In this document: positions 3,792-44,892 of the stretch, piece after piece | How positions within the stretch are numbered: position 1 is the stretch's first letter | Layout: every line of letters begins with the position of its first letter | Source of the DNA: a virus | Virus record (IMG/VR): IMGVR_UViG_3300025316_000027 | Span: 1-44,892 of that record | Length of the DNA: 44,892 nt | Strand: one strand, 5' to 3' | Made by a program: the position numbers and the translations under genes | Notes under the pieces: generated by a model | The model's input: only the letters and a program-made list of their open reading frames with translations | Database searches by the model: none | Told to the model about the DNA's origin: nothing

Positions 3792-3837
3792 GAACCATCT
3801 CCAACCAAACATAATCTAATGGCTTTGGAGATGGTTC
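3792..3837 (+). promoter_or_regulatory. 13-bp hairpin that would sequester the ribosome-binding site of the downstream endonuclease
   Basis: GAACCATCTCCAA (3792-3804) is perfectly complementary to TTGGAGATGGTTC (3825-3837), with a 20-nt loop. The GGAG at 3827-3830, 8 nt before the ATG at 3839, is inside the 3' arm, so read-through mRNA would hide it. T4 homing endonucleases such as I-TevI are silenced by this arrangement. Confidence 0.7.
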
Positions 3838-3838
3838 T

Positions 3839-4813: not shown

Positions 4814-4819
4814 ATCATT

Positions 4820-5263: not shown

Positions 5264-5661
5264 AGCTGGACGATCTGAAATGCGAAGTGTGCGGAAAGAA
5301 GGGAGTAGCCACTTGGTCAGCCACAGAGGGAGCCCGCTGTCAGGAACACAGCGGGTACGTGGAGAAACACAAAAATACCCCGGCAGGTGAGGCCACGAGT
5401 GCCAACTCGTGCACCGCCGGGGACCACCTGGGCGAGGACCATTTAGCAGGTCGCCGGGTTTGGGACCCGGAGATTCGTGTGGGTGCGAACCCCACCGCCC
5501 AGATTTACCGGCACGATTGTGGTAGCAGTTCAAAGCGGTGCATAGTACTTGGAATCCCAATGAAGAAGGGACTATTTCACCATATAACCCAGGGTGTAGC
5601 TCAGAGGCAGAGCGCTCGGTCCGGAACCGAGAGGCCGGGATCTCAAAATTCCCCACCCTGA
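5260..5661 (+). CDS. Small zinc-binding protein whose frame runs on through two tRNA genes
   Basis: The first 40 residues (CEVCGKKG...CQEH) look like a genuine zinc ribbon and the GTG start is coupled to the upstream gene. The frame then has no stop through a hairpin, a complete tRNA-Pro and a second tRNA, finally ending on a TGA formed by the last bases of that tRNA. The C-terminal two thirds is therefore tRNA sequence read as protein. Either the original stop was lost when tRNAs arrived or the product is a meaningless extension. Only the N-terminal part is convincing. Confidence 0.4.
   Translation: MKLDDLKCEVCGKKGVATWSATEGARCQEHSGYVEKHKNTPAGEATSANSCTAGDHLGEDHLAGRRVWDPEIRVGANPTAQIYRHDCGSSSKRCIVLGIPMKKGLFHHITQGVAQRQSARSGTERPGSQNSPP
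5378..5422 (+). other. Strong composite hairpin just upstream of tRNA-Pro
   Basis: CCCCGGC (5378-5384) pairs with GCCGGGG (5416-5422). Inside, GGTG can pair with CACC, and CACGAG/CTCGTG forms an apical 6-bp hairpin with a 6-nt loop. No T-tract follows, so it is not a classical terminator. It may be a leader or processing element for the tRNA-Pro transcript, or a small structured RNA. Confidence 0.45.
5428..5503 (+). tRNA. tRNA-Pro (anticodon TGG)
   Basis: Acceptor CTGGGCG/CGCCCAG (7 of 7), D stem GACC/GGTC, anticodon stem CCGGG/CCCGG around TTTGGGA, T stem GTGGG/CCCAC around TGCGAAC. The D loop lacks an obvious GG. It lies inside the open frame of the preceding zinc-ribbon gene. Confidence 0.8.
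5590..5661 (+). tRNA. Degenerate tRNA, anticodon loop TCCGGAA (CGG by numbering; possibly a decayed Arg CCG)
   Basis: Acceptor CAGGGTG/CACCCTG and D arm GCTC/GAGC are perfect, and the anticodon stem is CTCGG/CCGAG. The loop has C at position 33, and the T arm is damaged: the T53-T61 pair is mismatched and the loop reads CTCAAAA instead of TTCRANN. The loop would be a normal Arg(CCG) loop if one T were restored. It may be non-functional. Confidence 0.5.
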
Positions 5662-5683
5662 ATATACTTAATCTGACCGGTAT

Positions 5684-5983
5684 TCACTTCACTTTTGCGA
5701 CTTCCGAGGTGCCATCCTCCATGGCTTTGTCGTGCTCTTTGTCTGCCTCCCCCAAGAGCGCCTCGAATTCCCCCACATGTACTTTCTCTTCCTTGGCCAC
5801 GTCCAAGAAGACCTTTTTGATCTTCTCGTTCTTGGTGCTGGCCGCCATTTGTTCATAGAGGCTAGCGGCATCCAGCTCGGCGATAATAGCTTGGCGTAGG
5901 AGAATGGCATCGCTAGACTTGGCTTCGTCGGCGACGCCTAGTAACGCCATGGTTTCGGATATTAATTTAGGATCTGGGTACAT
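5684..5983 (-). CDS. Ferritin-like (rubrerythrin-type) small protein, 99 aa
   Basis: Residues 24-78 form a two-helix half-ferritin: AELDAASLYEQMA (E36, E44) followed by a second helix with KEEKVHVGEFEALL (E65, E66, H69, E72). The E...ExxH pattern is the di-iron ligand set of ferritin-like and encapsulated-ferritin-like proteins. At 99 residues it would have to dimerise to complete the four-helix bundle. Small ferritin-like proteins occur in structural regions of some large phages, and this one opens the - strand structural cluster. Iron binding is inferred, not shown. A GAGG lies upstream of the ATG. Confidence 0.65.
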   Translation of the reverse strand: MYPDPKLISETMALLGVADEAKSSDAILLRQAIIAELDAASLYEQMAASTKNEKIKKVFLDVAKEEKVHVGEFEALLGEADKEHDKAMEDGTSEVAKVK

Positions 5984-6024
5984 ATGGCACCTCTATTAAA
6001 GGTTTGCCTGGTGCCATGCGGGAC

Positions 6025-6453
6025 TTAGGCCAGCGGTACTGGATCGTTAAACAAGGCCAGGTAGGCCGGATTGTCAACCTGGGCTGCGGAGCCATCCGGC
6101 TTAGCTACTGCCACCTTGGCAGGAACAACCGATAGCAACAGCTGTTTAGTGCCAGTAAGATACGCCTTTAAGCCATCATAGGCTAGCTTCTTAGCATCTT
6201 CAATGCCGCCCTGGAGTACACCAGAGCCGTTATCAACACCATCGCGAAGTTGAGCCAGAGTGGGGGCATTGCCAGTAGTCAGAAGTGTTGGGCCAAAGAC
6301 TACTTCACGCAGTCTAGTATAAATAGCCATCAGCTGCTGTGTTGCCCCAACTGAAAGAGTTTCTAGATTGATGTCGGCAAACTGTACAACCTGGAGCACA
6401 GTCTTGCCTGTCATGTCTACGCCGCAAAGAGTGGTTACTGGTCTGGTCGCCAT
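6025..6453 (-). CDS. Hypothetical phage protein, 142 aa
   Basis: Unrecognised; helical, Ala/Leu/Val-rich, no membrane segment. It has a good TAGGAG ribosome-binding site and an AT-rich TCAAAAATAC element about 20 bases before it. It sits between the ferritin-like gene and the fibre-associated genes on the same strand, so a virion or tail-fibre accessory role is plausible but not demonstrated. Confidence 0.55.
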   Translation of the reverse strand: MATRPVTTLCGVDMTGKTVLQVVQFADINLETLSVGATQQLMAIYTRLREVVFGPTLLTTGNAPTLAQLRDGVDNGSGVLQGGIEDAKKLAYDGLKAYLTGTKQLLLSVVPAKVAVAKPDGSAAQVDNPAYLALFNDPVPLA

Positions 6454-6998: not shown

Positions 6999-9900
6999 TT
7001 ACAAGTGTGGCGTCCCATCGTTGGTATTACCTGAAGTATCAACCGCAGTACTGCAATCCGGCCAATGTAAGAAGATATCAGGAATAATGTAGCCTCCGCC
7101 AGCAACCGCCGCAATCTCTACGTCAAGCAGGGCTCGACTCCAGATTGCGTAGTTATTGGCCTCGCCAACTAGGCCAATACTCCCCGCCCCCCGCGCTGCG
7201 AAGGTTGAAAGTACATTACCAGCGATCGAGCCAGATGCAGTAGTGCCTGACTGCAGTACTCCATCCACAAAGAAATCTAGAGAGACAGTCCCCAGCCCAT
7301 CATCAGAAAAACGAGCCGTATAACAATGCTCCACTCCAGGATCTATTGAAGCAAGAGTGTCTAAGTCAGCAAAACCAATACACCCAATATGCCATCTACC
7401 GTCATATTGCAAAAACACCTGGGGCTGTCCAGTTGGCGTCCCAGAATAGTCGGCTTCGGCCATCATCTGGACTCCCCCATCATAGACAGACGAAATTCGG
7501 GCACTGACAGTCAGTCCATATCCTAAAGTTAGTGCCGGGTGTGTGATGTAGCTCGTTCCTCTGAAAGTTGGAGCGGGGTCCGCCGTCCCCACCAACGGTT
7601 CCCCCACAGGCCCTTCACCGTATTCGCTGGTGGCCGTGGCGGTGAAACTGAAAGCATAGCCGGGTCCGACCGCGATGAGCGCGGCGACATCCCCACTGAT
7701 CGTGCCCTCATACCATGTGTAGGAGGTGATCGTGCCCGCTCCGGGGTCGGCCACGGCGGATAGCTGATACAGCCAGACCGTTCCGTTCCAGGTCGCCGAG
7801 ACCAGGGTGAGCGTGGCCGGACCGGGGAGATTGTTCGGAGCGTTATCCGGTACGTCGATGGTCCAGCCGCGCGCAACCAGCGTAGTGTAGGAAGTCTCGT
7901 CGGAGTAGCCGTTGTTGCCGGTGAATGCGATCGCGCCCCCGTACACTCCGCCCGCATCCGCGGCCGCCAATAGCGAGTCTACCTGGGCCACAGAGAGCCC
8001 GCAGTTCGTCACATCCACCCGCGACAGGTTGCCGGTGATGTGGAATACCCCGCCTACCGCGGTGCTGTACAGGTAGAACACGTCGCCCGTTACGTACACG
8101 TCGCCCGCCACGGCACCATACGCCAGCACGGGGAAGATCAGCCCGCCGGTCGCGGTGTCCAGCACTCCGCCGGAGATGTACGCGTCGCCGGCGACGGTGA
8201 AACCGCTGGCCAGCTGGCAGCCCACCACGTCTATCGCACTGGTTCCAAACGCCGAGGCCGTGGACGAGGCCGTCACATGGATCGAGCCCGTGATCGTCGC
8301 CGGTGGAATCGTCGTGAACCATTGAGCCGCTGTGACCGCCCCGGCGACCATGGCGTTGACGGTGCAGTTCCCTGCGCTCAGGGCCGCGAAGCTAGCTGCA
8401 CTCCCGGATGGAACCGAGTCGTCGAGCAGCGTGTAGTTGATCACGGCGTTGCCGCATGCTGCGGAGGCCGAGAATACCGGAGCGTTCGTAGCAACTCCGC
8501 CAGCCACCGTGTAATCCCATTGCACGGTGTCGCCAGGCCCAAAGATCGTGCTCGCCGGCACGCCTCCGACCGTGTAGTTGCCCGGATTCAGACCATCGTT
8601 ATCGGCCAGGGCGTTTGTCCAGAGATACGGACCGGCCGGGGTATCTGGAAGAGTGCCATCAATTGTACCTGCTGAGGTAGTTGGGCCATAGGCATTAGAG
8701 TGTGTTATATAAATTGAATATGGAGCATTGGGGGCATATCCAGAAACATAAGAATTAAATGTATTGAAAACTGTGCTGTCTAAAAGTGTTTCGCGATAGA
8801 TTTCGGTGTCGTCAAAATAGTCTGACCAGGAGATATTTATCTCCCAACAGGTAAAGTCTTGGTTCCAATTAATAGAATCTAAGTTTGGAATCTGAGCGGG
8901 GGCACCAGCATTAGGTAGGGGGCTGCCCATTGCGATCTGGGAGGCGTCCGACGGATCGGACGGTTGGCCACGCCCGTAAATGGCGCTGACGCCGTAGCAA
9001 ACGATGCCGCTCAAATCAGCACTAGGAGCGATGGGAGATCCACTGTCTATGAAGTAGCTACCAACACTTGCCAGAGGACATCCCCACGACTCCCCTCCCA
9101 TGCTGTCGGCGTAGTCGATTGTCCCCACCATCATCACATAGGTCCACGCTGAACCATTCCAGTTAGCGCTAGACCAATCGGTAAGGGGATCAATCACCGG
9201 GGCACTCGGCTTACTGGGAGCTAGAGGATCGCTAAGCCATGACAGCGTCAGAGGATCGCTTATTGGCCCATTGCCAGCAGCATTGACACCGCGAGCCTTC
9301 GCCACAAACGCAGTCGCAGCAGTATGCTCACCGTTCAGCAGGAGGGTGATGCAGTCAGCGGGACCACCGGGACTCACATCCATGTACCCTTGCGGAATGC
9401 CTTCCACTTCCGAAGCTGGATAACATGCGCGTCCGTGACCGGCAGCCCCGTAATCGCTCTCTTGATTTGCTGCCCACACATCACTACCCGCCGCGTCCGA
9501 AACCCACCAACTGGAAACATTCCACCACAACACTCCGTGTGTACCTGTCAGCACCTTCTTGCCACCATAGATGCCAGTGATGGTGTAGTATCCCTCCAAG
9601 TTTGGATACAGCGTATGTAATCCTGTGCCATCACTCACCGCCCCGCCTGCAAACTTCTTCGCGGCGGTGTACGTGCCACTATCGTTGATGTCGTAGACCA
9701 CACTGGTGGACCCTACACTGGTCGCATCCAGAGTGTAGACGTACTTATCGCCATCTAAGAGGGCTACGACAGTGGGCGTAGTGGCCTTGGCGGGAACTTG
9801 CAGCCATGTCCCCGCTTCACTGACCGGTCCATCTCCAGCAGTATTGTGCCCCTTAGCCAAGCAACTGCCGGTGGTGCCGTACGCCTTGGTTGCTGTTGCC

Positions 9901-10265
9901 ACACCCCACGTTACGCCAGCATCATAGCTGTACAGCATGGAAGTAGAGCCCGTCGCCGTGGCGTGGGCCGTTACTGTGGTGGCGTCATAGATAAAGGTGG
10001 GCGTGGTGGCCTTGGCGGGAACGACAGGAGGCAGGGGTGATACTGCCAACTTAGTAATTATGGCAGAAGTGTTGAATTTGGCCAACACAAAATCACTGGC
10101 CGCTTCGTCCTGGAGATATCTTGTTAGGGTGGGGTATCCGACTGCGTCCACGCGCGTTTCCCGCGTGGCTATGAGCCTTTCCCCAAAAGTTAAAGAAGTG
10201 AGGTCTTTGACCACCCCGCCCACTAGGGTTACTTCTTTAAAGCCAACTATGTGGATATTTGACAT
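6999..10265 (-). CDS. Large tail-fibre or adhesin protein with repeated beta-domains and a LamG-like C-terminus, 1088 aa
   Basis: The N-terminal roughly 90 residues are non-repetitive and may attach to the virion. They are followed by fibronectin/Ig-like modules joined by KATTP linkers. Around residues 730-790 is an LRR-like stretch (VTNCGLSVAQVDSLL...GNNG). The final about 180 residues (YITHPALTLGYGL...DFFVDG...NYAIWSRALLDVEI...DTSGNTNDGTPHL) match the concanavalin/LamG fold common at phage fibre tips and used to bind glycans. The DNA for residues about 540-900 is visibly richer in G+C than the flanks, as if the domains were swapped in. A host-receptor-binding role is inferred. Confidence 0.75.
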   Translation of the reverse strand: MSNIHIVGFKEVTLVGGVVKDLTSLTFGERLIATRETRVDAVGYPTLTRYLQDEAASDFVLAKFNTSAIITKLAVSPLPPVVPAKATTPTFIYDATTVTAHATATGSTSMLYSYDAGVTWGVATATKAYGTTGSCLAKGHNTAGDGPVSEAGTWLQVPAKATTPTVVALLDGDKYVYTLDATSVGSTSVVYDINDSGTYTAAKKFAGGAVSDGTGLHTLYPNLEGYYTITGIYGGKKVLTGTHGVLWWNVSSWWVSDAAGSDVWAANQESDYGAAGHGRACYPASEVEGIPQGYMDVSPGGPADCITLLLNGEHTAATAFVAKARGVNAAGNGPISDPLTLSWLSDPLAPSKPSAPVIDPLTDWSSANWNGSAWTYVMMVGTIDYADSMGGESWGCPLASVGSYFIDSGSPIAPSADLSGIVCYGVSAIYGRGQPSDPSDASQIAMGSPLPNAGAPAQIPNLDSINWNQDFTCWEINISWSDYFDDTEIYRETLLDSTVFNTFNSYVSGYAPNAPYSIYITHSNAYGPTTSAGTIDGTLPDTPAGPYLWTNALADNDGLNPGNYTVGGVPASTIFGPGDTVQWDYTVAGGVATNAPVFSASAACGNAVINYTLLDDSVPSGSAASFAALSAGNCTVNAMVAGAVTAAQWFTTIPPATITGSIHVTASSTASAFGTSAIDVVGCQLASGFTVAGDAYISGGVLDTATGGLIFPVLAYGAVAGDVYVTGDVFYLYSTAVGGVFHITGNLSRVDVTNCGLSVAQVDSLLAAADAGGVYGGAIAFTGNNGYSDETSYTTLVARGWTIDVPDNAPNNLPGPATLTLVSATWNGTVWLYQLSAVADPGAGTITSYTWYEGTISGDVAALIAVGPGYAFSFTATATSEYGEGPVGEPLVGTADPAPTFRGTSYITHPALTLGYGLTVSARISSVYDGGVQMMAEADYSGTPTGQPQVFLQYDGRWHIGCIGFADLDTLASIDPGVEHCYTARFSDDGLGTVSLDFFVDGVLQSGTTASGSIAGNVLSTFAARGAGSIGLVGEANNYAIWSRALLDVEIAAVAGGGYIIPDIFLHWPDCSTAVDTSGNTNDGTPHL

Positions 10266-19197: not shown

Positions 19198-19839
19198 ATG
19201 AACAAAGAACAGGCTATAACCTTGCGGGAATCAGGCTTGAGCATACGCGAAATAGCTGCAATGGGCATATCTAAATCAACAGCCAGTGTTTGGTGCAGAG
19301 GGATTAAAGGTAGCGACAAACGAGCAAGGACCAATATTAAATTGAATGCAGCGCGAGGCAGTCTGGCTTGCGCCCAAAAGTGGTCCAAGTTACACTCTGA
19401 AGCAATAGCAGAGGCCATATCCGAATGGGCACTTCTTAAACAAGATCCAAATTTTATGGAATTTATTGGCATATATTGGGGAGAAGGAGACAAAAGATGT
19501 AGCCAAGTGGGTATATCCAACACTGACCCGGCACTTATACGAAAATGTATGCACATCTTTGAAAGATTCACATCACCAAAATATGATTGCACAATCATGA
19601 TCTATCCAGACGAGAATGGGGCATCTATATCTAAATACTGGTCGGAACAACTACATCTGTCATGCCCAATCAGGATCATAAGGAAAGAATCATCTGGCAA
19701 GCGGAAATATACTAACCATGGAACTGCGCACCTACGATTTAGTGACTGGAGGCTCAAACAAAAATTAATGGCGTGGATCGAGTGTACACGCCAAAGCTCG
19801 GTAGAGGATTTGCACCTCTGTGTGGCGAAGCCATCCTGA
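19198..19839 (+). CDS. LAGLIDADG-type homing endonuclease with N-terminal helix-turn-helix, 213 aa
   Basis: An N-terminal helix-turn-helix (about residues 3-30, LRESGLSIREIAAMGISKSTASVW) precedes FMEFIGIYWGEGDKRC (about residues 96-105), a single LAGLIDADG-like helix with the acidic catalytic residue. The C-terminal domain carries the KYWSEQL and HLRFSDWRLKQKLMAWI elements also seen in the relic at 2043-2336. One LAGLIDADG motif implies a homodimer. The last 15 codons are read from the antisense strand of tRNA-Cys, which also supplies the stop. AGAGG precedes the ATG. Confidence 0.7.
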   Translation: MNKEQAITLRESGLSIREIAAMGISKSTASVWCRGIKGSDKRARTNIKLNAARGSLACAQKWSKLHSEAIAEAISEWALLKQDPNFMEFIGIYWGEGDKRCSQVGISNTDPALIRKCMHIFERFTSPKYDCTIMIYPDENGASISKYWSEQLHLSCPIRIIRKESSGKRKYTNHGTAHLRFSDWRLKQKLMAWIECTRQSSVEDLHLCVAKPS

Positions 19840-19878
19840 TTTGCAATCAGGCCCGTTCGTCTTCTCCGGCAACCGAGC
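19795..19878 (-). tRNA. tRNA-Cys (anticodon GCA) with a long variable arm
   Basis: Acceptor GCTCGGT/ACCGAGC, anticodon stem CCTGA/TCAGG around TTGCAAA, discriminator T (a Cys identity base), T stem AGAGG/CCTCT around TGCAAAT. The variable region contains a TGGC/GCCA hairpin, and the D loop lacks GG. It overlaps the endonuclease 3' end on the opposite strand by 45 bases. Confidence 0.7.
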
Positions 19879-29827: not shown

Positions 29828-30397
29828 TTGAAACCCATGGATACCAAGCCCCAAATAATCGCCGTAATGAGCATCGAGGAGGCCATCGCAGGAGACAACT
29901 GCCCGCACTGCGGGCAGGCAGACAGACGAGTTTACGAGCATATCCGAACCTGTTCCGAAGCGCACAAGAATATCGACCTGGATAAGAATACAGACCGCAA
30001 TTGCCGATGGGCCACCCATGACCTCTGCGGCAAGGTCCTGGTCCTACGCCGGCAAGATGGCCTCTGCCTAGTTGAAAACGATCACAGCCGTTACGTGGTA
30101 CCCATTAGCTCCCTCCATTTTGGCATGCTCAGCCGCCTCATCGACGAGATCGAGGAATACGACCTGGCCACAGAAGAGATCGAGAAACTCATCAATATTC
30201 TGCGGATCAAGGGCAAGGGCAAGATCAAGATCCCACCGCACCCCGAGCTATGGCCAGGCTGCCGTCTGGAAGTGCAGATGGGTCAGGCCACAAAAATAGC
30301 CAGCATCAAGGTCAAGCGCGGAGCCTGCTATCTGTGCGAAACAGAAGATGGGGTGTCCGTGCTGATTTCGCCCAAGAACATCCTGGGGATTAAATAG
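29828..30397 (+). CDS. Hypothetical protein with an N-terminal zinc knuckle, 189 aa (TTG start)
   Basis: An isolated + strand gene in the - strand structural block. CPHCG...(H)...C near residues 24-42 could be a zinc finger; the rest contains small beta-barrel-like segments (GKVLVLRRQDGLCLVENDHSRYVVPIS and KRGACYLCETEDGVSVLIS) that look like duplicated KOW/SH3-like units. I prefer TTG 29828 because AAGGAGG stands six bases before it; ATG 29837 is the alternative. Its end overlaps the convergent methyltransferase gene by 8 bases. Confidence 0.55.
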   Translation: MKPMDTKPQIIAVMSIEEAIAGDNCPHCGQADRRVYEHIRTCSEAHKNIDLDKNTDRNCRWATHDLCGKVLVLRRQDGLCLVENDHSRYVVPISSLHFGMLSRLIDEIEEYDLATEEIEKLINILRIKGKGKIKIPPHPELWPGCRLEVQMGQATKIASIKVKRGACYLCETEDGVSVLISPKNILGIK

Positions 30398-31013
30398 ACT
30401 TTCTGAGAACCAGACCCCATCCGCCCACTGGCGCAGTAAGAAAATACAACAGTGGCTGCCGTAGTATCTCTATAAATCCAGTCCTGATAAACAGGGTATC
30501 AAGCATCGTATTGGACCAATACATGCTGTGATACGCTGTGATGTCGTCGCAATACATATCTGGAGGGATAGGCATGCCGGCGGTGTGGAACATTTCCTGC
30601 TCACCTCTGGGACGGGCATCGAGCGGCAGTGTAATAATAACTACGCCCTCGTCCCGCAACGCCCGGTGGCATTCACTCAAGGCCGCTGCGGCTGATTCGA
30701 CAGTACAATGCTCCAGAAATTCGCCCAGGACGACCGCCCCGAAATGCCGATTGGGGAATGGAATATTACGCACATCTCCATTTATATATTGCTTGCACTT
30801 TGAGAAGTCTCTATTGGTCCATGGTTCAACTTGCTGAATATCCATATTAATAGCACCCATATCCCCTAGGTCGGCTGGGTCATAGGCACAAGCTGCATTA
30901 AGGACCGGCCTAGCGCAGCGGCCAACTTGTTCACGTTGAAAGTCATAGCAATTCATTGCAGATTTATTGGCATACCATGACGACCATAATTCATTCCAAG
31001 TGTTAGGCAGCAT
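30390..31013 (-). CDS. SAM-dependent methyltransferase, class I, 207 aa
   Basis: Motif I is the atypical PVLNAACAYDPADL with the acidic end MDIQ, and motif III/IV is GDVRNIPFPNRHFGAVVLGEFLEHC, followed by ALRDEGVVIITLPL, the Methyltransf_11 pattern. The substrate is unknown. Its ATG overlaps the stop of the glycosyltransferase gene (TAATG), so both enzymes are made together, which suggests modification of the same glycan or protein. Confidence 0.7.
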   Translation of the reverse strand: MLPNTWNELWSSWYANKSAMNCYDFQREQVGRCARPVLNAACAYDPADLGDMGAINMDIQQVEPWTNRDFSKCKQYINGDVRNIPFPNRHFGAVVLGEFLEHCTVESAAAALSECHRALRDEGVVIITLPLDARPRGEQEMFHTAGMPIPPDMYCDDITAYHSMYWSNTMLDTLFIRTGFIEILRQPLLYFLTAPVGGWGLVLRKSI

Positions 31014-32155
31014 TATTTCTTCAACCAATCGAGTTGTACTCTATCATCATGTACAACGTTCCAACCATCACCCCATAGGTCATATAGCATGTGGAAATAT
31101 TCATCATATGCTAGCTTAATCCGATCGATTGAATACTTAGCTAGAGTCTTCTCTCTAATTGTTTTGGGATCCAAGGTGTGGACGTTTTGTGCGGCCCACA
31201 CAAAATGATCGAGGGTTCTGCATCTAAACCCAGTGACTCCATGTTCTACAGTTTCCACAAATGCGCCCCAGTCTGTAGTAATTACTGGGGTGCCACACGC
31301 TTGAGCTTCTATGGCCACTAATCCAAATGGTTCAAGGTAAGTTGACGGAACAAACACAGCCTTGGCATGCCCCATTAACTCTGATCGTTTCTTAACATCG
31401 GCTGGCCCAACGTACTCCCAATTTCCAGGGGCTAAGTCTAAGTGGTCTCCGAGCAGTCTACCGTTCACCAGTTTGCCGCCCTGGCCTGCTATAATTAATT
31501 TGGCACCAATATGTTCAGTGGTAGTTAATGCGATATGAATGCCTTTGCGGGCCATGATTCGCCCGAGATATAGATAATAATCGCCCTTCTCTTGGCATAG
31601 GCTAAAATCATCTGGATCTACATAATGTGGAATTACTGAGTCATAATATCGTCCGTCTTCATTCCAGCGATATTGGCCATACACATAATGCATATGGGTA
31701 TATGATGGGAATACTTTATGGTTTTTACCTATCCCAGTATACCCTGTAGTATACTCAACTGGTATTGTTATGCCGCGATATGTGTCAGCAATGGTATCTT
31801 GGATGGGGGTAGTAACGGCAATGAAGTCTTTGTGTTTGACTCGTCTGGCCATTTCGGCGATGATTTTGCCGTTCATAAACAGCCAGTATGGTTTGGAGCC
31901 ATCCCACTCTACTATTGCTCCTTGGGTGCGATGGTCGTGCCCGCCAAAGAATTCCGACTGCTCCACCTTGGTCATTACTTGGACGTTTTCAGTGCACGGC
32001 GGGTTTGAGCCTTCCACGCCATAATGGATGACTTCATGGCCAAGTGACATCATCATTTTACAGAAGGAATAACAATTTGAAGTGAAGGCACAGACATTAT
32101 ATGCTTTGCTGGTCTGTGTGTGGGGTAGGCCGAGGACGTGAAATCGTAATTGCAT
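31013..32155 (-). CDS. Glycosyltransferase family 4-like protein, 380 aa
   Basis: The C-terminal domain has the GT-B signature: YLYLGRIMARKGI (about 194-206), KLIIAGQGGK, and the E-x7-E nucleotide-sugar motif EPFGLVAIE (E275, E283) followed by ACGTPVI. The N-terminal Rossmann half contains MMMSLGHEV(I)HYG. The length matches GT4 enzymes. It presumably transfers a sugar from a nucleotide donor; target could be virion proteins made by adjacent genes, phage DNA or host glycans. It is coupled to the methyltransferase. Confidence 0.8.
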   Translation of the reverse strand: MQLRFHVLGLPHTQTSKAYNVCAFTSNCYSFCKMMMSLGHEVIHYGVEGSNPPCTENVQVMTKVEQSEFFGGHDHRTQGAIVEWDGSKPYWLFMNGKIIAEMARRVKHKDFIAVTTPIQDTIADTYRGITIPVEYTTGYTGIGKNHKVFPSYTHMHYVYGQYRWNEDGRYYDSVIPHYVDPDDFSLCQEKGDYYLYLGRIMARKGIHIALTTTEHIGAKLIIAGQGGKLVNGRLLGDHLDLAPGNWEYVGPADVKKRSELMGHAKAVFVPSTYLEPFGLVAIEAQACGTPVITTDWGAFVETVEHGVTGFRCRTLDHFVWAAQNVHTLDPKTIREKTLAKYSIDRIKLAYDEYFHMLYDLWGDGWNVVHDDRVQLDWLKK

Positions 32156-36456: not shown

Positions 36457-37491
36457 TTAACTACCTGCAAAAATTGTTACGTCTGGACCTAATGCTGGTG
36501 GGGCATATGAATAAGGTGAGGTAGAGGCAGCTATACACAATCCAGTAGTAAAAGATCCTAAACTAAAATTCCCTGCGGGGACAACGTAGGGACCAGGTGG
36601 TAAAGCAATGGTATATAAAACAGTGCCGCTAAACATCCCAGAATAACTGGCTATATTATAGAATAGTAAGTATATTAGGATATCATTAGGGTTATTGGCA
36701 ATTATGCTCATGCTACTATTGGCGGCGGCTGTGATTAGACAACGTTGAAGAGCAGGATAAAACCGAGGGATTAAAGTTGCGGCATTGGTGATAGATTGGA
36801 CAATAGTAACTGAATTATTAGTGTATAATGAAGTAAGCACAGAGAGGTAATTCATAGGAAATGCTGTTGATGCCCGAAGAGTAATAGACGCCCCACCCGT
36901 TCCGGTCCAAGCAATAAGCCGAACTATTTTATATCCACTACATGGAATAAGAAATATATCAGGCGCTGAGGCTGAAGTGCCCTGTGCGTTGCCAGATGGC
37001 ATTGCGTATGAATTTGATAATATTACAAGTTTTGGGACTACTGAATAATATATGCCGTCTAGCGAATACGCCGCATAAATGTAGCCTGTCGAAGCAACAC
37101 CATAACTATCAATTCCGGCAGCAACTATGGAATGCCCATTTAGGGATATATCAACATATGATCCTTTAATGAATGATTGACTTACACCAGAGCCAATGTA
37201 GCTTGGGGCGGTTACTGTTATCCGTCCGCTCACTACCACATCTGGCATGCTTGTAGCTACCACTTGGTCATTTGCTATGGTTACCGGCAACGATGCAGCA
37301 GAACTCCCCATCCCAGTTTGCGATAGTGCTTCCAAATAATTTTCAATATCCTGCATCGTCTCCAATTGCTCTTCAAGTATCTCGTTGACGGACGGGGAGT
37401 TTACAGCCAGACCACTCACTGGGTCAATTTGCGCAATATTCCCATTCAGATCATTTATCTGTGTAATTTGATTTGCTAAGTTTTGTGCCAC
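36457..37491 (-). CDS. Structural paralogue B1 of a five-gene tandem array, 344 aa
   Basis: All five share an N-terminal leader (MAQxL...ITQI.D..GNIAQIDPVSGL.V.SPS) with an acidic helix, then EALSQTG...AASLPVTIANDQVVATSMPDVVVSG, a central beta domain (DISLNGHSIV, YAAYSLDGIYY, IPCSGYKIVRL), RASTAFPMNYLS, NNPNDILIYLLFYN and the end FTTGLCIAAS(T)SPYSY..LGPDVTIF. A fibre or decoration protein is likely. B1 is the distal copy. Confidence 0.65.
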   Translation of the reverse strand: MAQNLANQITQINDLNGNIAQIDPVSGLAVNSPSVNEILEEQLETMQDIENYLEALSQTGMGSSAASLPVTIANDQVVATSMPDVVVSGRITVTAPSYIGSGVSQSFIKGSYVDISLNGHSIVAAGIDSYGVASTGYIYAAYSLDGIYYSVVPKLVILSNSYAMPSGNAQGTSASAPDIFLIPCSGYKIVRLIAWTGTGGASITLRASTAFPMNYLSVLTSLYTNNSVTIVQSITNAATLIPRFYPALQRCLITAAANSSMSIIANNPNDILIYLLFYNIASYSGMFSGTVLYTIALPPGPYVVPAGNFSLGSFTTGLCIAASTSPYSYAPPALGPDVTIFAGS

Positions 37492-37492
37492 A

Positions 37493-38497
37493 TTACACTC
37501 TAATATATATTGTTACATCTGGGCCTAATGGTGCTGGAGCATAATTAGATGAAGTCATTGATGCCGCCAAGCATATCCCTGTCGTAAAAGTTCCCAAGCC
37601 AAAATTGCTCACTGGATAAGAAGATTGCCCTGGTGGTATTGGAATAACTAGGGTTGGAGTTCCATTTAGCAGCGTAGGTAAGGTTGATAGATTATAAAAT
37701 AATAAATACACTAATGAATCATTTGGATTGTTAGCAGTAAAGCCAAATAGAGTGTTAGCCCCACTAACTACTTTTCGTTGTAAGTTTTTGTAATAATATG
37801 GTGTTAACGTCGGCCTATAACTGTCAGCGGCAGCTAATACTGGTTGAACGGTGCCAAAAACAGTATTCGTATAGGTTAGAAGCGAAGAAAGATAATTCAT
37901 TGGGGGAGCAACTGATGCTCGGAGAGTAAAGGTAGCAAGCCCAGTAATAGTAGATACGGCTACCATTCTCCATCGTTTGTATCCGGCACACGGAAACCAA
38001 CAGATTGCGCCATCAGTATATGGATTGAATCCTTGGGTATAGTTTTTATAGATTGACCCACCGCTACAATTTACAAAATTTACCCCATCTAATGACGCAT
38101 AAATATAATAAGCAATACTCTGAATGGTTCCGGTGGCTTGGACCGTAACTATCGAGTGTCCATTTAAGTCTATGTCGATATAGGAGCCCGGAAGGGCGAA
38201 GAGTGCGTTGACAGCGATTTTATTTATCGTACCACTTACCACTACATCTGGTATGCTTGTAGCCACCACTTGGTCATTAGCTATTGCTACTGGTAATGAT
38301 GCAGCAGAACCTCTAACCCCCGTTTGACTTAATATTTCTAAATAATCCCTAATGTTTTTAAAGACTTTGGATTGTTCTCGTAAAGTAGCAACCAGAGACG
38401 GATCGTCTACTTCAAGCCCATTTACTGGATCGATAATAGCTACATTACTCCTATCATCAGTAATTTGTGTAATTGCAGTTGTAAGCCCATGAGCCAT
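37493..38497 (-). CDS. Structural paralogue B2, 334 aa
   Basis: Same landmarks as B1: EILSQTG...AASLPVAIANDQVVATSIPDVVVSG, DIDLNGHSIV, YASLDGVNFV, PCAGYKRWRMV, RASVAPPMNYLS, NNPNDSLVYLLFYN, FTTGICLAAS, LGPDVTIYIRV. One base separates it from B1. Confidence 0.65.
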   Translation of the reverse strand: MAHGLTTAITQITDDRSNVAIIDPVNGLEVDDPSLVATLREQSKVFKNIRDYLEILSQTGVRGSAASLPVAIANDQVVATSIPDVVVSGTINKIAVNALFALPGSYIDIDLNGHSIVTVQATGTIQSIAYYIYASLDGVNFVNCSGGSIYKNYTQGFNPYTDGAICWFPCAGYKRWRMVAVSTITGLATFTLRASVAPPMNYLSSLLTYTNTVFGTVQPVLAAADSYRPTLTPYYYKNLQRKVVSGANTLFGFTANNPNDSLVYLLFYNLSTLPTLLNGTPTLVIPIPPGQSSYPVSNFGLGTFTTGICLAASMTSSNYAPAPLGPDVTIYIRV

Positions 38498-38505
38498 TTT
38501 AATCC

Positions 38506-39549
38506 TTATGAACTAGAAAATATTGTAACATCTGGACCAATAGGAAGTTTGATATAACTTATAGGAGACGACGATGCAGCAACACATAACCCAGTTGTAT
38601 AATTTCCTATAGAAAAATTACCTATGGGTATTGTAGAGAAGCCTGGAGGAATAGACAAAACAAAGTAGATCGGAGTATTGGGACTAACCGAGTTCGCATT
38701 GAAAAAGAGCAAATAAATAGTAAAATCATTTGGGTTGTTAATGATTAATCCAAAACAGAAATTATAGAGCGCAAGGAATTTTGTAGATAGATTTGGTATA
38801 AATCTGGGCACCAAATCAACTGGCGTAGTCGATTGGGACATAGTAACAGAAGTGTTAGCTTGGAGAGAAAGGAGTAAAGAGAGATAATTCATCGGCATGG
38901 CGGAGGAGGCACTGAGAGTAACATTCGCAAAACTACTAGAAAGATAAGAGCACACCAATCGAACTACTTTATATCCAGCACATGGAACAATAGAAATATA
39001 ATTGCCAGCAGCGTATCCACCTTTTAGGATAGAACCACCAGTTAAATTGCCCATATTCATATCAGGCGCTGCAATATTCACAAAATTTGTACCACCTAAT
39101 GATACAAAATTCACAAAATTTGTACCATCTAATGATACAAACACCATTAAGGTATATGAATTATTAGGCTGGCTTATTGCCTGAACTGTTACTGTTGAGT
39201 GCCCATTTAGCTGAATATCAATGAAAGAGCCGGGCGTGGGCGGAAGCGAGGCGAGACCGCCAGTATTTGCTCTCACAATCTGCCCGCTTACTACCACATC
39301 CGGTATTGAAGTAGCCACTACTTGGTCATTAGCTACCGCCACTGGCAAGGATGCTGCGGCATTTTTGGTTCCAGTCTGACTTAATATCTCTAAGTAATTA
39401 CTAATATTTTGAATAGAGTCAGAAGATTGATCCAGTAACTCCTTAATGGATGGAGAATCCACGCTCAAACCATTAGTGGGATCAACTGGAACCACTTTTC
39501 CATCTTGGTCAGCAATCTGCGTTGAAGTTGTAAGTAAGCCTTGTGCCAT
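38506..39549 (-). CDS. Structural paralogue B3 with an internal 33-bp duplication, 347 aa
   Basis: Same family as B1-B2. Its central LDGTNFVNF unit is duplicated: two 33-bp copies at 39077-39109 and 39110-39142 encode VSLDGTNFVNF and VSLGGTNFVNI. The rest shows IPCAGYKVVRLV, SASSAMPMNYLS, NNPNDFTIYLLFFN and LGIGPDVTIFSSS-type ending. Tight spacing to B2 and B4. Confidence 0.65.
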   Translation of the reverse strand: MAQGLLTTSTQIADQDGKVVPVDPTNGLSVDSPSIKELLDQSSDSIQNISNYLEILSQTGTKNAAASLPVAVANDQVVATSIPDVVVSGQIVRANTGGLASLPPTPGSFIDIQLNGHSTVTVQAISQPNNSYTLMVFVSLDGTNFVNFVSLGGTNFVNIAAPDMNMGNLTGGSILKGGYAAGNYISIVPCAGYKVVRLVCSYLSSSFANVTLSASSAMPMNYLSLLLSLQANTSVTMSQSTTPVDLVPRFIPNLSTKFLALYNFCFGLIINNPNDFTIYLLFFNANSVSPNTPIYFVLSIPPGFSTIPIGNFSIGNYTTGLCVAASSSPISYIKLPIGPDVTIFSSS

Positions 39550-39550
39550 A

Positions 39551-40549
39551 TTATGTGCTCGTGAAAATCGTTACATCCGGACCCAATTGCAGGGGAGAAT
39601 AAACAGTAGCAGACTGCGATGCTGCTATACATAGCCCAGTAGTAAATGCCCCTAAACCAAAGTTGCTGGCTGGAATTGTTGAAAAACCGGGGGCAACCGG
39701 AATAGCATAATAAATTGCCGCATTCATCAAAAGGGCGTTGGTATTAGTGTTGTATAGCAACAGATAAATCGTAAAGTCATTAGGATTATTAACCAGCATG
39801 TTAGACAAAACTGTAGCCGCTGCATTATTGACTACTTTTTGTAAGCCTTTGTAGAAGCGTGGGACAAGAGTGTTGGCTTTAGATATTGATTGAGCTACAC
39901 CAAACTGCGCATTAGCGTGATTGTTAAATAATAAGGAGAGATAATTCATTGGGAAAGCAACAGAAGCACGAAGAATAATAGTAGTTCTGCCAACAACTCC
40001 ACGATTTGTAACTATCCGCACTGACTTATACCCGGCACATGGAATGAGCACAGGCCCCCCTCCGCCCGCTCCGGCGGTGTTAAATGCGGAGGCAGTAAGA
40101 CCGGCAAGATTTGGAAAGTTATACCAAGATGTTAAAGTGATACCAACTACCGTCACATAATTTACACCATCAATTGATGCCTGTGGATAAAAACCAAGTC
40201 CATTATCCGCTGTATACATATACACGGCAACCACAGAATGTCCGTTTAAGTCAATACTTAATATACCGCCATTTGTAGGTACAATCCCACTCACCGTTAC
40301 ATCCGGTATGCTTGTAGCAACTATTTGGTCATTCGCTACTGCTACTGGCAACGATGCAGCGGCACTCCTGGCCCCAGTTTGCGATAGTATCTCTAAATAA
40401 TCACGAGTCTTCTTAAGAGACTGGATTTGCCTGCACAACAGCATCTTGGCTTGCGAGGAATCCACCGCCAATCCATCGACTGGATCAATCTGGGCGATGT
40501 TCCCATTAGGATCAATAGTTTGCGTAAGATTTTCAGACAAACCTTGCAT
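39551..40549 (-). CDS. Structural paralogue B4, 332 aa
   Basis: MQGLSENLTQTIDPNGNIAQIDPVDGLAV, EILSQTG...AASLPVAVANDQIVATSIPDVTVSG, SIDLNGHSVVAV, IPCAGYKSVRIV, RASVAFPMNYLS, NNPNDFTIYLLLYN, FTTGLCIAAS, LGPDVTIFTST. A loop of the central domain has a Gly-rich insertion (GAGGGGPV). Its ATG directly follows the stop of B5. Confidence 0.65.
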   Translation of the reverse strand: MQGLSENLTQTIDPNGNIAQIDPVDGLAVDSSQAKMLLCRQIQSLKKTRDYLEILSQTGARSAAASLPVAVANDQIVATSIPDVTVSGIVPTNGGILSIDLNGHSVVAVYMYTADNGLGFYPQASIDGVNYVTVVGITLTSWYNFPNLAGLTASAFNTAGAGGGGPVLIPCAGYKSVRIVTNRGVVGRTTIILRASVAFPMNYLSLLFNNHANAQFGVAQSISKANTLVPRFYKGLQKVVNNAAATVLSNMLVNNPNDFTIYLLLYNTNTNALLMNAAIYYAIPVAPGFSTIPASNFGLGAFTTGLCIAASQSATVYSPLQLGPDVTIFTST

Positions 40550-41575
40550 TCAAATTCCTGTAAAAGTAGTCACATCTGGTCCAAGTTGCAATGGGACATA
40601 AGAATAAGGAGATTGAGAAGCTGCCAAACACAACCCAGATGATAAATTATACATATTAAAATTACCAGAATTAATAGTGGTGAGTCCCGGTGGGACCGAG
40701 ATCACCATATTTGGTGTGGCACTTAAGATATTGGCAATAGTGGTTGTGTTATAAAATAGAAGATAAATAGAAAAATCATTGAAATTATTGATATATAAAC
40801 TAAAAAGTTGATCTGCGGCGGCATAAATCACGGCCCGTTGTAGCCCTTGATAAAAACGAGGGACTAGAGTAGATGCGGCCGAGCCGACATATGAGTACGC
40901 ATATTGAACACCAGTTAGAGAGGTATTGGCAGCACTGGAGAGAAGCAAAGACAGATAATTCATTGGCATGGCTGCGGAGGCACGGAGAGTAACTTGCACA
41001 CCGCCGGGCATCCCTCCCGATGTGTTTAATATTCGCACCCTTTTATACCCAGAACATGGGACCAAAAATAACCATGGATAATTTGCTACATAAAATCCAT
41101 ACTTCGACGCCGCAAGGCCGCCAGCAGAATTAATAGCGGGCGTCGGGACAAAATTTATGCCATCCAATGATGCGTATGGTAGTAAGTATGAGGACACGGT
41201 TGGCAAACCCATAGCTTGCCCGGCTACTACTGAGTGCCCACTCAACTCTATATCAACAAAAGTACCGGGAATAAAAGTAGTAGGATGTAAAGTGCCGGTA
41301 GAGTTTATTTGTCCACTCACCGTTACATCTGGTATGCTCGTCGCTACTATTTGATCATTAGCTACAGATATAGGCAACGAAGCCGCTGCCCCCCTAACCC
41401 CAGTCTGCGATAGCATCTCAAGATAATCTTCTATATCCCGCAACAAAGACAACCGCTCACTCAGAAGATTCTTAATGGATGGAGAATCAACCATTAACCC
41501 ATTATTGCTTGTGGGAGCAATATTCCCAGTTGGGTCAACGATTCGCGTGGTATTTGTTATTAATCCTTGAGCCAT
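40550..41575 (-). CDS. Structural paralogue B5, 341 aa
   Basis: First B copy in transcription order: MAQGLITNTTRIVDPTGNIAP, EMLSQTGVRGAAASLPISVANDQIVATSIPDVTVSG, DIELSGHSVV, YASLDGINFV, VPCSGYKRVRI, RASAAMPMNYLS, NNFNDFSIYLLFYN, LSSGLCLAAS, LGPDVTTFTGI. Its ATG overlaps the stop of the upstream gene (TAATG). Confidence 0.65.
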   Translation of the reverse strand: MAQGLITNTTRIVDPTGNIAPTSNNGLMVDSPSIKNLLSERLSLLRDIEDYLEMLSQTGVRGAAASLPISVANDQIVATSIPDVTVSGQINSTGTLHPTTFIPGTFVDIELSGHSVVAGQAMGLPTVSSYLLPYASLDGINFVPTPAINSAGGLAASKYGFYVANYPWLFLVPCSGYKRVRILNTSGGMPGGVQVTLRASAAMPMNYLSLLLSSAANTSLTGVQYAYSYVGSAASTLVPRFYQGLQRAVIYAAADQLFSLYINNFNDFSIYLLFYNTTTIANILSATPNMVISVPPGLTTINSGNFNMYNLSSGLCLAASQSPYSYVPLQLGPDVTTFTGI

Positions 41576-41904
41576 TAGGTTACTTGTACTCCAAAGAAAT
41601 TAAACGACAGCATAGAGGTTGAGGCATAAACCCTAACAATATCAGTAGTAGCCAAGCTTATACCAATAGTCGCTGAAAAAGTGTTGTGAGCTGGAATACT
41701 AACTCCATAGTAAATATATTGGGCAATAGTGTCGGCTGCTCCCCCAACAGCTATTGATATATTAAAGGTGGCTGTGGATCCACCAGAGTTACATACTGTT
41801 ATGGTTGATATAACAGTACTAGTAGCCCCAGGCACTGTATAGGCATTAGTCAAAGCGCCAGCTTGAGGATTAGTCTGACTTAAAACTTGGATAGTGTCAG
41901 CCAT
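41575..41904 (-). CDS. Small structural protein, 109 aa
   Basis: VLSQTNPQAGALTNAYTVPGATSTVISTITVCNSGGSTATFNISIAVGG... is a beta-sandwich-like protein of a type I have seen next to collagen-like and decoration proteins in phage structural clusters. No signal or membrane segment. It is coupled to B5 and follows the collagen-like gene by 9 bases. Confidence 0.6.
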   Translation of the reverse strand: MADTIQVLSQTNPQAGALTNAYTVPGATSTVISTITVCNSGGSTATFNISIAVGGAADTIAQYIYYGVSIPAHNTFSATIGISLATTDIVRVYASTSMLSFNFFGVQVT

Positions 41905-41913
41905 TTTATACTC

Positions 41914-43164
41914 CTATGCGCCCATTAGCATAAACAATCGTGCTGTGGACCCAGCTGCCCCCCCACCTGCCGCCCCACATGGCCCAACAGCCCCACAAGG
42001 CCCCAGGGGGCCGCATGCCCCCAATGCTCCGCATGGTCCGCATGGTCCTAAAGCACCGCATGGGCCAGTAGAACCAATTGCCCCGCATGGGCCACAGGGT
42101 CCTAATGCTCCACAGGATCCCAGTGCCCCACAGGGTCCTACCGCTCCTAGTGCCCCACAAGGCCCGACAGCCCCACACGGACCGGTAGAGCCAATTGCCC
42201 CACATGAGCCTGTAGAACCAACGGGGCCACAGGGTCCAGTTGATCCGATTGGGCCGCAAGGTCCTAATGCCCCACAAGGACCAATTGGGCCACAGGGTCC
42301 TAGCGCTCCACATGGACCAGTTGAGCCTAATGCTCCGCAGGGACCTAAAGCACCACACGGGCCAACTAAACCGCACGCACCGTCTACGCCGCAAGGCCCA
42401 ACCGCTCCGCAAGGACCAGTAGACCCAATGGGTCCACAGGGACCTAATGCGCCACATGCTCCTGGAACCCCACACGCCCCGGCCACACCGCACGGGCCTA
42501 CTGCTCCACATGGACCAATCGCGCCACACGGACCAGTAGAGCCAATGGGACCACAAGGTCCTAATGCCCCGCATGGGCCGACCAAGCCGCACGAGCCAAT
42601 AGGACCACATGATCCTAAAGCCCCGCATGGCCCTAAAGCACCGCAAGGGCCAGTTGACCCAATTGGGCCACAAGGCCCCAGAGCGCCGCAAGGACCTAAT
42701 GCACCACATGCGCCAGGAATCCCACATGCGCCCGGAATTCCACACGCCCCCGGAACACCACACGCTCCGGCGACACCGCAAGGACCAGTAGATCCAACAG
42801 GGCCACATGGCCCTAATGCTCCGCAAGGACCCAAAGCGCCGCATGGGCCACATGGACCCAACGCCCCACAAGGACCAACTAAACCACAAGGACCAGCCCC
42901 GCATGGACCAGTTGCACCGGACGGGCCTGACGGACCAGAGGGGCCTTGCAACCCGCACGGACCAGCTAAACCACACGCCCCACTCCCCCCGCCCCCGCTC
43001 ATGTCAACCCAGTTTGTTCCATCATAATAGTAGCACTTATGGGCAGCAGTATCAAAATAAATCCACCCAGCCTGAGGCGTGCTAGGCGGAGCGGCCCGGT
43101 TCTCCAGGCGCAGATTCAGAATCTGATTGCCAGTAAGATCAACGGTGGTTAAAAATTTATACAT
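41914..43164 (-). CDS. Cysteine-rich collagen-like fibre protein, 416 aa
   Basis: Residues 1-60 form a phage-fibre attachment domain (TTVDLTGNQILNLRLENRA...GWIYFDTAAHKCYYYDGTNWVDMSG). Residues about 65-395 are Gly-X-Y repeats dominated by GPC, GAL, GPI, GST and GAC triplets, with about 50 cysteines, mostly in the Y position. Collagen-like triple helices are common in phage fibres, but Cys at this density is not. Extensive interchain disulfides or thiol/metal chemistry may be involved. It ends with a short tail (STARLFMLMGA). A TAAATATAAG motif lies upstream. The DNA is a repeat tract, so copy number could be affected by assembly. Confidence 0.8.
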   Translation of the reverse strand: MYKFLTTVDLTGNQILNLRLENRAAPPSTPQAGWIYFDTAAHKCYYYDGTNWVDMSGGGGSGACGLAGPCGLQGPSGPSGPSGATGPCGAGPCGLVGPCGALGPCGPCGALGPCGALGPCGPVGSTGPCGVAGACGVPGACGIPGACGIPGACGALGPCGALGPCGPIGSTGPCGALGPCGALGSCGPIGSCGLVGPCGALGPCGPIGSTGPCGAIGPCGAVGPCGVAGACGVPGACGALGPCGPIGSTGPCGAVGPCGVDGACGLVGPCGALGPCGALGSTGPCGALGPCGPIGPCGALGPCGPIGSTGPCGPVGSTGSCGAIGSTGPCGAVGPCGALGAVGPCGALGSCGALGPCGPCGAIGSTGPCGALGPCGPCGALGACGPLGPCGAVGPCGAAGGGAAGSTARLFMLMGA

Positions 43165-43191
43165 TACGCTACCAAGCTACAACCAAACTAT

Positions 43192-43201
43192 CTTATATTT
43201 A
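43192..43201 (-). promoter_or_regulatory. Candidate phage promoter, TAAATATAAG
   Basis: Exact 10-mer shared with 12031-12040 and 23528-23537. It lies 27 bases before the collagen-like gene start and could drive that gene and the five-gene array after it. Confidence 0.5.
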
Positions 43202-43229
43202 CAAGCAGCCCCCTCCACCACCACATACA

Positions 43230-43724
43230 TCAAAAAATCAGCAAGGCGTGCCCAGCGATAGCAGACGAATACGTTATCACCACCGTATTGATATCCGGAT
43301 AAGAAACATCACCAAATATCGTATTATCAAATTGGTCGTGTGTGGAAACAGTCGCTGGATTCCTACCCAAGTCATGAACAATAGTCCACGTTGCCGAATC
43401 CACAGGCTGAGAATACTTAAATTCAGTCGTTGCCCCAGTGCCGGAAATTAACCACGCTATGTAGCTATTGAGCCGCTCCCCCTTGTCCACCTGGCTAATA
43501 ATATTTAAGTATTCATCTGGAATATTTAAGTCTAGTTTCCCACTCTTCTCATCGTACCGAACATCAAATTCATAGGAAGAATTATCGTTAGCTGCAACCC
43601 TGCCAATTAAAGAGTGTAAAATAAGATCGGCCACCCGAGTGGCTTTTGCGATTTGCTGAGGTGATGGTGGATCACCACCTCTAAAACCGCGGCCATACGG
43701 CACTGGAATTTTATAACTAGCCAT
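43230..43724 (-). CDS. Tail or virion protein with a shared C-terminal domain, 164 aa
   Basis: MASYKIPVPYGRGFRGGDPPSPQQIAKATRVADLIL... begins with a basic loop and helices and ends in ATWTIVHDLGRNPATVSTHDQFDNTIFGDVSYPDINTVVITYSSAIAGHALLIF. This W-x-I-x-H-(N/D)-LG...P..V...D..G..I.GD(V/I)...D.NTV.I.(F/Y)SSA..G.A.L pattern recurs in the partial gene at 44189, and I recognise it from phage baseplate and fibre proteins. The ATG overlaps the stop of the upstream gene. Confidence 0.65.
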   Translation of the reverse strand: MASYKIPVPYGRGFRGGDPPSPQQIAKATRVADLILHSLIGRVAANDNSSYEFDVRYDEKSGKLDLNIPDEYLNIISQVDKGERLNSYIAWLISGTGATTEFKYSQPVDSATWTIVHDLGRNPATVSTHDQFDNTIFGDVSYPDINTVVITYSSAIAGHALLIF

Positions 43725-44133
43725 TAATATTCTGTGCAATTACTTGCACATCTTCATCAAGAATCCGGATGATCTGACCATATGTTTTAATACCATGTTG
43801 CCACCTACGAGGAGCACTGGTAACCTTGGCCGAAGCCCCCGCCTTATTCATCACAAAGTCAGATAAAGTAGCAATCAGCTTGGGCGGCACTTCCTGCTTG
43901 GCCTCTGTGCCCGCAAATGAGCCAAGAAACATATAATCATCCATAACCGAAGAAGCAGCGGCGCGCCCCTCCACAATCTTACACAGTATGGCCCTATTGC
44001 CACTCGATAGCTGCACAGTCAGCCCAATCCTATTAAAATCCTCCTCCAACGAGAAAATAGTGTCCAAGTAGACAAGATTCCTGATCTTGTACAACAAGGC
44101 ATTAGTGCTGCTCTCAATAATATCATCTGGCAT
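43717..44133 (-). CDS. Hypothetical phage structural or baseplate-region protein, 138 aa
   Basis: An alpha/beta protein, MPDDIIESSTNALLYKIRNLVYLDTIFS..., with a conserved-looking centre (RRWQHGIKTYGQIIRILDEDVQVIAQNING) and no Cys clusters. It overlaps the next gene by 8 bases and lies between two genes with the same C-terminal domain, so it probably belongs to the tail module. Function not recognised. Confidence 0.55.
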   Translation of the reverse strand: MPDDIIESSTNALLYKIRNLVYLDTIFSLEEDFNRIGLTVQLSSGNRAILCKIVEGRAAASSVMDDYMFLGSFAGTEAKQEVPPKLIATLSDFVMNKAGASAKVTSAPRRWQHGIKTYGQIIRILDEDVQVIAQNING

Positions 44134-44188
44134 AGTTCACCTATATCGATCTTAATTATCTTTGTGGTGGACCTCAGCCGTACTATAT

Positions 44189-44892
44189 CTACAGAAAACT
44201 GAGGACAGCCCTGCCGGCAATAGCCGACGAGAACGTAATAATCGTCGTATTGACATCAGGATTACTAATGTCTCCAATAATTATATTTCCATCCATATCA
44301 TGCGCCACCACATCAGTCGGCCTCTTCCCAGCATTGTGAATGATCTCCCACGTGGCGGCTGGAGTGTCCTGGCTGAAATAGAAAGTGGTGACAGGAGCCG
44401 CCGCAGGCGTCAGGTTCGGATCACACACACCCTCATTAAGATTCGGGCAGAAATAAAAATCTTCCTGGCAACACCTCTTCGGAATCATTCCGGGGGATTC
44501 AATGTTGACCGGCAGAGCTTGGTCACCCGTAAACTGACTATGCCAATCAAATTCATCAGTAGGAGTGTCCAGCCCGACACCGTTGAAACCTTGCCGCAGG
44601 CAAGACGGATCTGGCGTCCATATCGGCAAAACCAAAGGGTCAGCCTTGTCATCAGAAGCTGGAAGCAGCCACTTCCTCAATAGCTTGCTATTGTCCACAG
44701 ATGGCTCCACCGAAGCCACGGTATCAGTGGACAAAAATGTGGAATTGAAATTCTGGATGCTCACGGGCCTCAAATGAAACGCTGGCATCTCACCGAGCGT
44801 CTGCGTGGCCATATACAAAGTATCGTCACTGGCCTTCCGTAGGCTCATCGTGAACTGCGAAGAAGTAATGCTGTAAAGCACCGATTCGGTTA
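44189..44892 (-). CDS. Structural protein with the shared C-terminal domain, 5' end beyond the window
   Basis: At least 230 residues; the frame is open to the window edge and the only early start is a GTG at 44881, so the gene probably begins outside. The C-terminus TWEIIHNAGKRPTDVVAHDMDGNIIIGDISNPDVNTTIITFSSAIAGRAVLSFL is a paralogue of the 43230-43724 end. A CxC-like stretch (KRCCQEDFYFCPN...CDPN) in the centre may bind metal. Probably a tail or baseplate component. Confidence 0.55.
   Translation of the reverse strand, partial: TESVLYSITSSQFTMSLRKASDDTLYMATQTLGEMPAFHLRPVSIQNFNSTFLSTDTVASVEPSVDNSKLLRKWLLPASDDKADPLVLPIWTPDPSCLRQGFNGVGLDTPTDEFDWHSQFTGDQALPVNIESPGMIPKRCCQEDFYFCPNLNEGVCDPNLTPAAAPVTTFYFSQDTPAATWEIIHNAGKRPTDVVAHDMDGNIIIGDISNPDVNTTIITFSSAIAGRAVLSFL

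Follow-up and report, generated by a model that had tools for sequence, protein, structure and literature searches.

Collagen-like rods of Gly-X-Y triplets are encoded by several named phages, including Synechococcus S-CAM7, S-CRM01 and S-CBWM1, Roseobacter CRP-114 and Actinomycetia DSL-LC01, where the genes are annotated as collagen-like, tail fibre or hypothetical. In six collagen genes of these five phages the Y residue is mostly Thr or Gln, and none of the 812 triplets contains Cys. Two further collagens differ from the fibre described here in other ways: the repeats of the exosporium protein BclA are of the GPT type and glycosylated, and minicollagens carry their Cys in domains that flank a short Gly-X-Y stretch. 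Minicollagens of Hydra combine collagen with Cys and form disulfide polymers, according to PMC6989532. In the EPclPs of E. coli O157 prophages, phage-fibre modules flank the Gly-X-Y domains, and PMC3368898 describes these domains as free of Cys. Normal type I triple helices are likewise said to be without Cys in PMC6039012, which reports a human α1(I) Arg-to-Cys substitution at Y, a single disease residue, that forms a Cys780-Cys780 disulfide with little effect on stability.

The whole stretch of viral DNA that we analysed (the window), a record of 44,892 bases, is probably a fragment. We confirmed that it contains a Cys-rich collagen-like gene (Table 1), the product of which is very probably a phage fibre. 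This product matches PF01391 (E=8e-40; score 134.9 bits, cut-off 27.2), has Gly in every third position through a long series of triplets, and also matches PHROG tail-fibre families; a sequence search aligned it with the BclA chain 1wck (E=2.7e-8). It resembles the rods of the named phages in architecture, but lacks the Cys-poor Gly-X-Y region that is typical, though not defining, of phage collagen fibres. It has 52 Cys in total and, unlike minicollagens with Cys only in flanking domains, holds 51 of them within its triplets (GPC 38, GAC 9, GSC 4; 46% of triplets). As in the α1(I) variant, Cys stands at Y, here as a repeated rather than a single residue, and the Y residues of the repeat are C, L, T, V and I. 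Successive Cys are six residues apart in 35 of 50 intervals, nine apart in 10 and three apart in 3. An earlier note on this DNA had described a collagen-like fibre with about 50 repeat Cys, chiefly GPC or GAC, in about every second triplet, and had called known phage collagens Cys-poor; our counts, the named phages and the EPclPs agree with it on all of these points.

Table 1. Positions of the fibre gene, its parts and its neighbours in the window.
Feature	Position	Strand	Remarks
Cys-ladder collagen-like gene, predicted fibre	41914..43164	-	416 aa, ATG start, stop included
N-terminal module, residues 1-58	42991..43164	-	PHROG matches, homologues, predicted structure
Gly-X-Y region, residues 62-398	41971..42981	-	112 triplets, 51 Cys, every one at Y
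Two-residue register slip, GPC-GA-GPC	42895..42900	-	sole interruption of triplets
Short C-terminal tail, GGGAAGSTARLFMLMGA	41917..41970	-	
Antisense open frame, Pro every third residue	41894..43027	+	377 aa, not a gene
Next gene, 109 aa	41575..41904	-	phrog_1276 match; weakly tail-fibre family phrog_11338, E=5.8e-4
Tandem array, five paralogous 332-347 aa proteins	36457..41575	-	
Upstream gene	43230..43739	-	C-terminal ~65 aa module common to 44189-44890
Upstream gene, 5' open at window end	44189..44890	-	same C-terminal module as 43230..43739

The repeat follows a Gly/Ser linker and ends in a tail in which no adhesin domain was seen. The window contains 68 copies of its core DNA pattern, GG-N4-TGY-GG; shuffled sequences contain 14.1 on average (sd 3.4), and none of 100 shuffles reached 68. 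Between triplets two apart, the third base of the Gly codon differs 78% of the time, with saturation at 75%; the Cys of this gene have therefore been retained while silent sites were randomised.

The coding strand called for a frame check, since the plus frame is uninterrupted too and shares its third codon positions with the gene; it has Pro at every third residue because the opposite strand has Gly at every third residue. With both frames open, neither ORF length nor simple wobble counts can decide the strand, and the GPC frame might be the shadow of a true proline-rich plus-strand gene, open over 377 codons. Such shadows are common: in one count, 44 of 82 Cys-rich frames lay opposite a strict Gly-X-Y frame, which makes a naive scan for GPC repeats misleading, and a match in Neisseria iguanae (L337) runs opposite a Pro-rich frame of 591 aa. 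Codon use in effect refutes this for the window gene. In the repeat, all 51 TGN codons of the minus frame are TGY, all 19 TTN codons are TTR and all 11 ATN codons are ATY; 51 consecutive TGY codons have a probability of ~4e-15 given the third-base make-up of four-fold sites, and the plus frame would need a Pro wobble base that depends on the next codon (chi-square p=1.7e-12). Moreover, the main neighbouring ORFs of 36457-44890 lie on the minus strand, and the N-terminal module is in the same minus frame as the repeat. On codon use, the minus frame is coding, and a wrong-strand reading is scarcely credible. The earlier interpretation, which recognised the Cys-collagen but missed both this antisense pitfall and the same trait in other phages, is as a whole partly supported.

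The N-terminal module (KFLTTVDLTGNQ...AGWIYFDT...YYYDGTNWV) matches phrog_8309 (E=1.5e-14) and phrog_38707 (E=2.1e-10), and a search with the module alone found three loci. Its homologues are phage-contig proteins (L309, L016 and L147) that have no Gly-X-Y run of five or more triplets. A structure model (pLDDT 75) gave three viral fold matches at E<=0.001 (best 3.6e-4), and several of its viral fold matches are named tail fibre or collagen proteins. The PDB fold search gave no significant match (best E 0.28); the non-significant ones included phage tailspikes, hyaluronidases, Mtd and the collagen XV/XVIII trimerisation domains. The PHROG, homologue and fold matches agree with the previous claim of an N-terminal attachment domain in that they identify a module common to phage fibres, and a putative role in virion attachment or trimerisation is likely. 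The companion claim, that virion genes adjoin the fibre gene, may hold in part: the 109-aa protein weakly matches a tail-fibre family, and the other neighbours have no assignable function. Both upstream genes match phrog_21918 and phrog_30556. The paralogues of the downstream array are 46-51% identical to the first and have a common LPVAVANDQ-type motif. None of the five matches Pfam, the two searched against PHROGs (40550-41575 and 36457-37491) gave no match, a search with 40550-41575 found no relatives, and the model of one paralogue (pLDDT 49) was too poor for use. The array possibly encodes virion surface proteins, maybe as an alternative set.

We identified Cys-rich collagens in at least 12 uncultured phage contigs besides the window, five of which (L293/L210, L254, L217, L223 and L257) are apparent copies of one phage type. 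Frames were called genuine-looking by a mechanical filter: an open frame of at least 100 aa, at least 15 triplets, Cys of at least 15%, varied X and Y, and no strict Gly frame antisense; the search patterns themselves exclude most shadows, not all. In a first viral pattern scan (at least 120 stretches) the GPC frames were nearly all antisense to GPQ-type collagens, with one genuine locus, L044, among the matches listed. A pattern with non-Pro X (at least 119 stretches) gave at least 13 genuine-looking frames in 11 of 101 new loci. The window-type pattern matched two stretches, one already known, and added L617, whose 982-aa Cys-collagen ORF (3313-6258) continues into a group-1 glycosyltransferase domain, through fusion or an assembly frameshift. 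Background Cys in the non-collagen ORFs of these contigs is 0.5-2.2%.

No close full-length homologue of the window gene was found in the sequences searched. Among its tblastn relatives (80 loci kept of 347) there were no genuine Cys-collagens and 142 Gly-X-Y frames with <15% Cys, and four other Cys-collagens compared with named phages by tblastn gave only matches of <80% identity, mostly <60%. The best tblastn match, locus L204 of a 735-kb uncultured phage (LR756501), was rejected because its GPC frame is antisense. A scan of bacterial genomes (at least 119 stretches) gave at least nine frames that pass the filter, and the best, L337, proved antisense on examination. Readers who rely on sequence alone may be misled by such cases: the long open GPC/GLC frames of L204 and L337 are shadows cast by frames of the GPQ-like or Pro-rich type.

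The N-terminal modules differ among the Cys-collagens. That of contig G003 is a Major tropism determinant N-domain (PF18454), that of L215 has similar PHROG matches, G001 and G002 have one module in common, and those of the other contigs have few or no PHROG matches; by eye and from PHROG and Pfam matches, we judge these modules unrelated. In both contigs where several collagen ORFs were counted, G003 and G006 (three each), all of them carry Y-Cys; those of G006 include a 189-aa protein with a weak virion-structural match (phrog_1731). A 189-aa frame with the same weak match occurs in L210 (5029-5595), L254 (5180-5746) and L257 (minus strand); its end is a GLC-GPI collagen tail of 14 triplets that holds 7 Cys. 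Open-licence PMC papers yielded no recognised description of Cys-rich phage collagens; what is new here is the Cys ladder inside the triplets, phage collagen fibres themselves being already known.

The placement of Cys follows a strict rule. Nine proteins of eight contigs hold 331 Cys at Y and not one at X; Cys pairs in adjacent triplets were counted 5 times, whereas shuffling predicts ~122 (sum of nine means). This count omits the near-identical copies L210, L254, L217, L223 and L257, the smaller G003 ORFs, the decoration-like G006 ORF and L617; those of the omitted proteins that were counted otherwise likewise have no X-Cys. Its regular expression reads the window gene as 114 triplets with 50 Cys owing to the register slip, the exact walk giving 112 and 51. 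The discovery patterns required three alternating Y-Cys, so the sample is biased and the rule partly selected for, although many further Cys of each protein lie outside the pattern. Control scans gave no counter-example: one for X-Cys (at least 120 stretches) had no genuine frame in 118 new loci among the matches listed, and one for consecutive Cys (119 stretches), which required non-Pro X in two triplets, had none among 12 new loci, genuine loci being absent among the matches listed.

The same rule holds at 30-66% G+C. Over 20 aligned triplets of the homologues G001 and G002, 10 of 10 Cys are kept, as against 4 of 10 matches at other Y positions, 13 of 20 at X and 8 of 20 at Gly third bases; the conservation of Y-Cys in homologues on which the earlier note had staked its reading is thus seen in this other pair of the same kind. 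Overall, the Cys ladder is in all likelihood selected. Its recurrence in several uncultured phages suggests fibres made for cross-linking or metal binding and not a chance oddity, and a recurrent, position-strict ladder in different phages points to selected chemistry. Through genetics, it also opens a way to ask if a triple helix can be stapled at each successive rung, a matter of interest for the biology of phage fibres as well as for protein materials. Whether collagen with Cys at Y alone in every second triplet is a fibre material in its own right, taken up repeatedly by different tailed phages, with rungs that form covalent or metal cross-links within and between virion fibres, is, in our estimate, an evenly balanced question.

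We modelled the triple helix from standard angles and adjusted it to reproduce the twist, the rise and the Gly-X hydrogen bond (2.90 Å). The minimum inter-chain Cβ distances are 4.9 Å for X-Y, 6.8 Å for Y-Y and 8.8 Å for X-X in a 7/2 helix, and 5.2, 7.9 and 8.9 Å, respectively, in a 10/3 helix; along one chain, Y-Y is 9.2 Å between neighbouring triplets and 18.2 Å between every second. A relaxed disulfide has a Cβ distance of about 4 Å, and a same-rung Y-Y distance of 6.8 Å is therefore not the placement of an easy intra-helix disulfide. A review agrees that Y-Y pairs are too far apart for a disulfide (PMC13138384). The covalently cross-linked filament of the earlier note, and the metal binding that it named as an alternative, are proposals. 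Y-Y pairs are too distant, yet a Y-Cys disulfide is reported in α1(I), so the rungs fit distorted bonds within a trimer, bonds between trimers, or metal.

We favour, at about even confidence, a homotrimeric surface or tail fibre of an uncultured tailed phage with spaced Cys rungs that become cross-linked after release. Three chains would form the homotrimer on the phage surface or tail, the 58-residue N-terminal module would dock to the virion or trimerise the chains, and 112 triplets would give a rod of ~96 nm if wholly triple-helical (0.86 nm per triplet). Because Cys occurs at Y alone and almost never in neighbouring triplets, the rungs would be isolated, one of three thiols (one per chain) about every two-triplet step, and would align only if the chains are in register. 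The thiols would be kept reduced during fibre folding in the cytoplasm of the host; after lysis, given an oxidising exterior, they would oxidise and link the chains within the trimer with local distortion. Since three thiols per rung is an odd number, neighbouring fibres or particles could also be linked.

Among roles for the ladder, cross-linking is the likeliest, with roughly an equal chance of being right or wrong, and metal binding comes next. Cross-linking is supported by the all-Y placement, the scarcity of adjacent pairs and the Cys conservation between G001 and G002, and by the α1(I) Y-Cys disulfide (PMC6039012) and the inter-subunit disulfides that occur in ssRNA phage coats (PMC6513524). 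It is weakened by the long Y-Y distance of 6.8-7.9 Å, by the fact that X-Y is closer (4.9 Å) yet X is never used, and by the finding of no thioredoxin-family gene in any of 12 contigs. The same distances suit a thiolate-metal-thiolate bridge better than a disulfide. A soft metal such as Zn, Fe or Cu could be coordinated by the three outward thiols of a rung and might tie the chains together or let the fibre grip metal-rich surfaces; rungs ~18 Å apart along the chain and the unused X-Y arrangement, which would favour direct disulfides, fit such a role, but each rung has only three ligands and the Y positions of the window repeat show no recurrent His or acidic partner, and we consider both the metal ladder and these effects unlikely.

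A role of the Cys as modification sites is distinctly improbable; Y-Cys would then stand where ordinary phage collagens have Y-Thr, and a phage glycosyltransferase would attach a sugar or other thiol adduct to it. The window does encode a group-1 glycosyltransferase (31013-32155), L617 joins a Cys-collagen ORF to such a domain, and the relative S-CAM7 has a glycosyltransferase gene after a Thr-rich collagen gene. However, the window enzyme is ~10 kb from the fibre gene, group-1 glycosyltransferases are common in large phages, and S-linked sugar transfer is rare. A reading without special chemistry, in which Cys is simply a small residue that Y tolerates and that repeat expansion or codon bias has spread, gains from the fact that tandem repeats copy whatever is in them and that the window repeat is called as one; it is nevertheless very improbable, as silent sites between the repeats are saturated while Cys stays, the rule spans 30-66% G+C, X-Cys is zero, adjacency is avoided and Cys is conserved between homologues.

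Elsewhere in the window, the 1088-aa protein of 6999-10265 (minus strand) matches nothing in PHROGs or Pfam at E<=0.01. Twenty tRNA genes lie at 3270-25269 among numerous HNH or homing endonuclease genes; they include a tRNA-Cys (19795-19878) and a tRNA-His with 89.6% identity across 75 bases to a counterpart from records of Acinetobacter phages. The glycosyltransferase gene (31013-32155, minus strand) adjoins a methyltransferase gene (30390-31028, minus strand).
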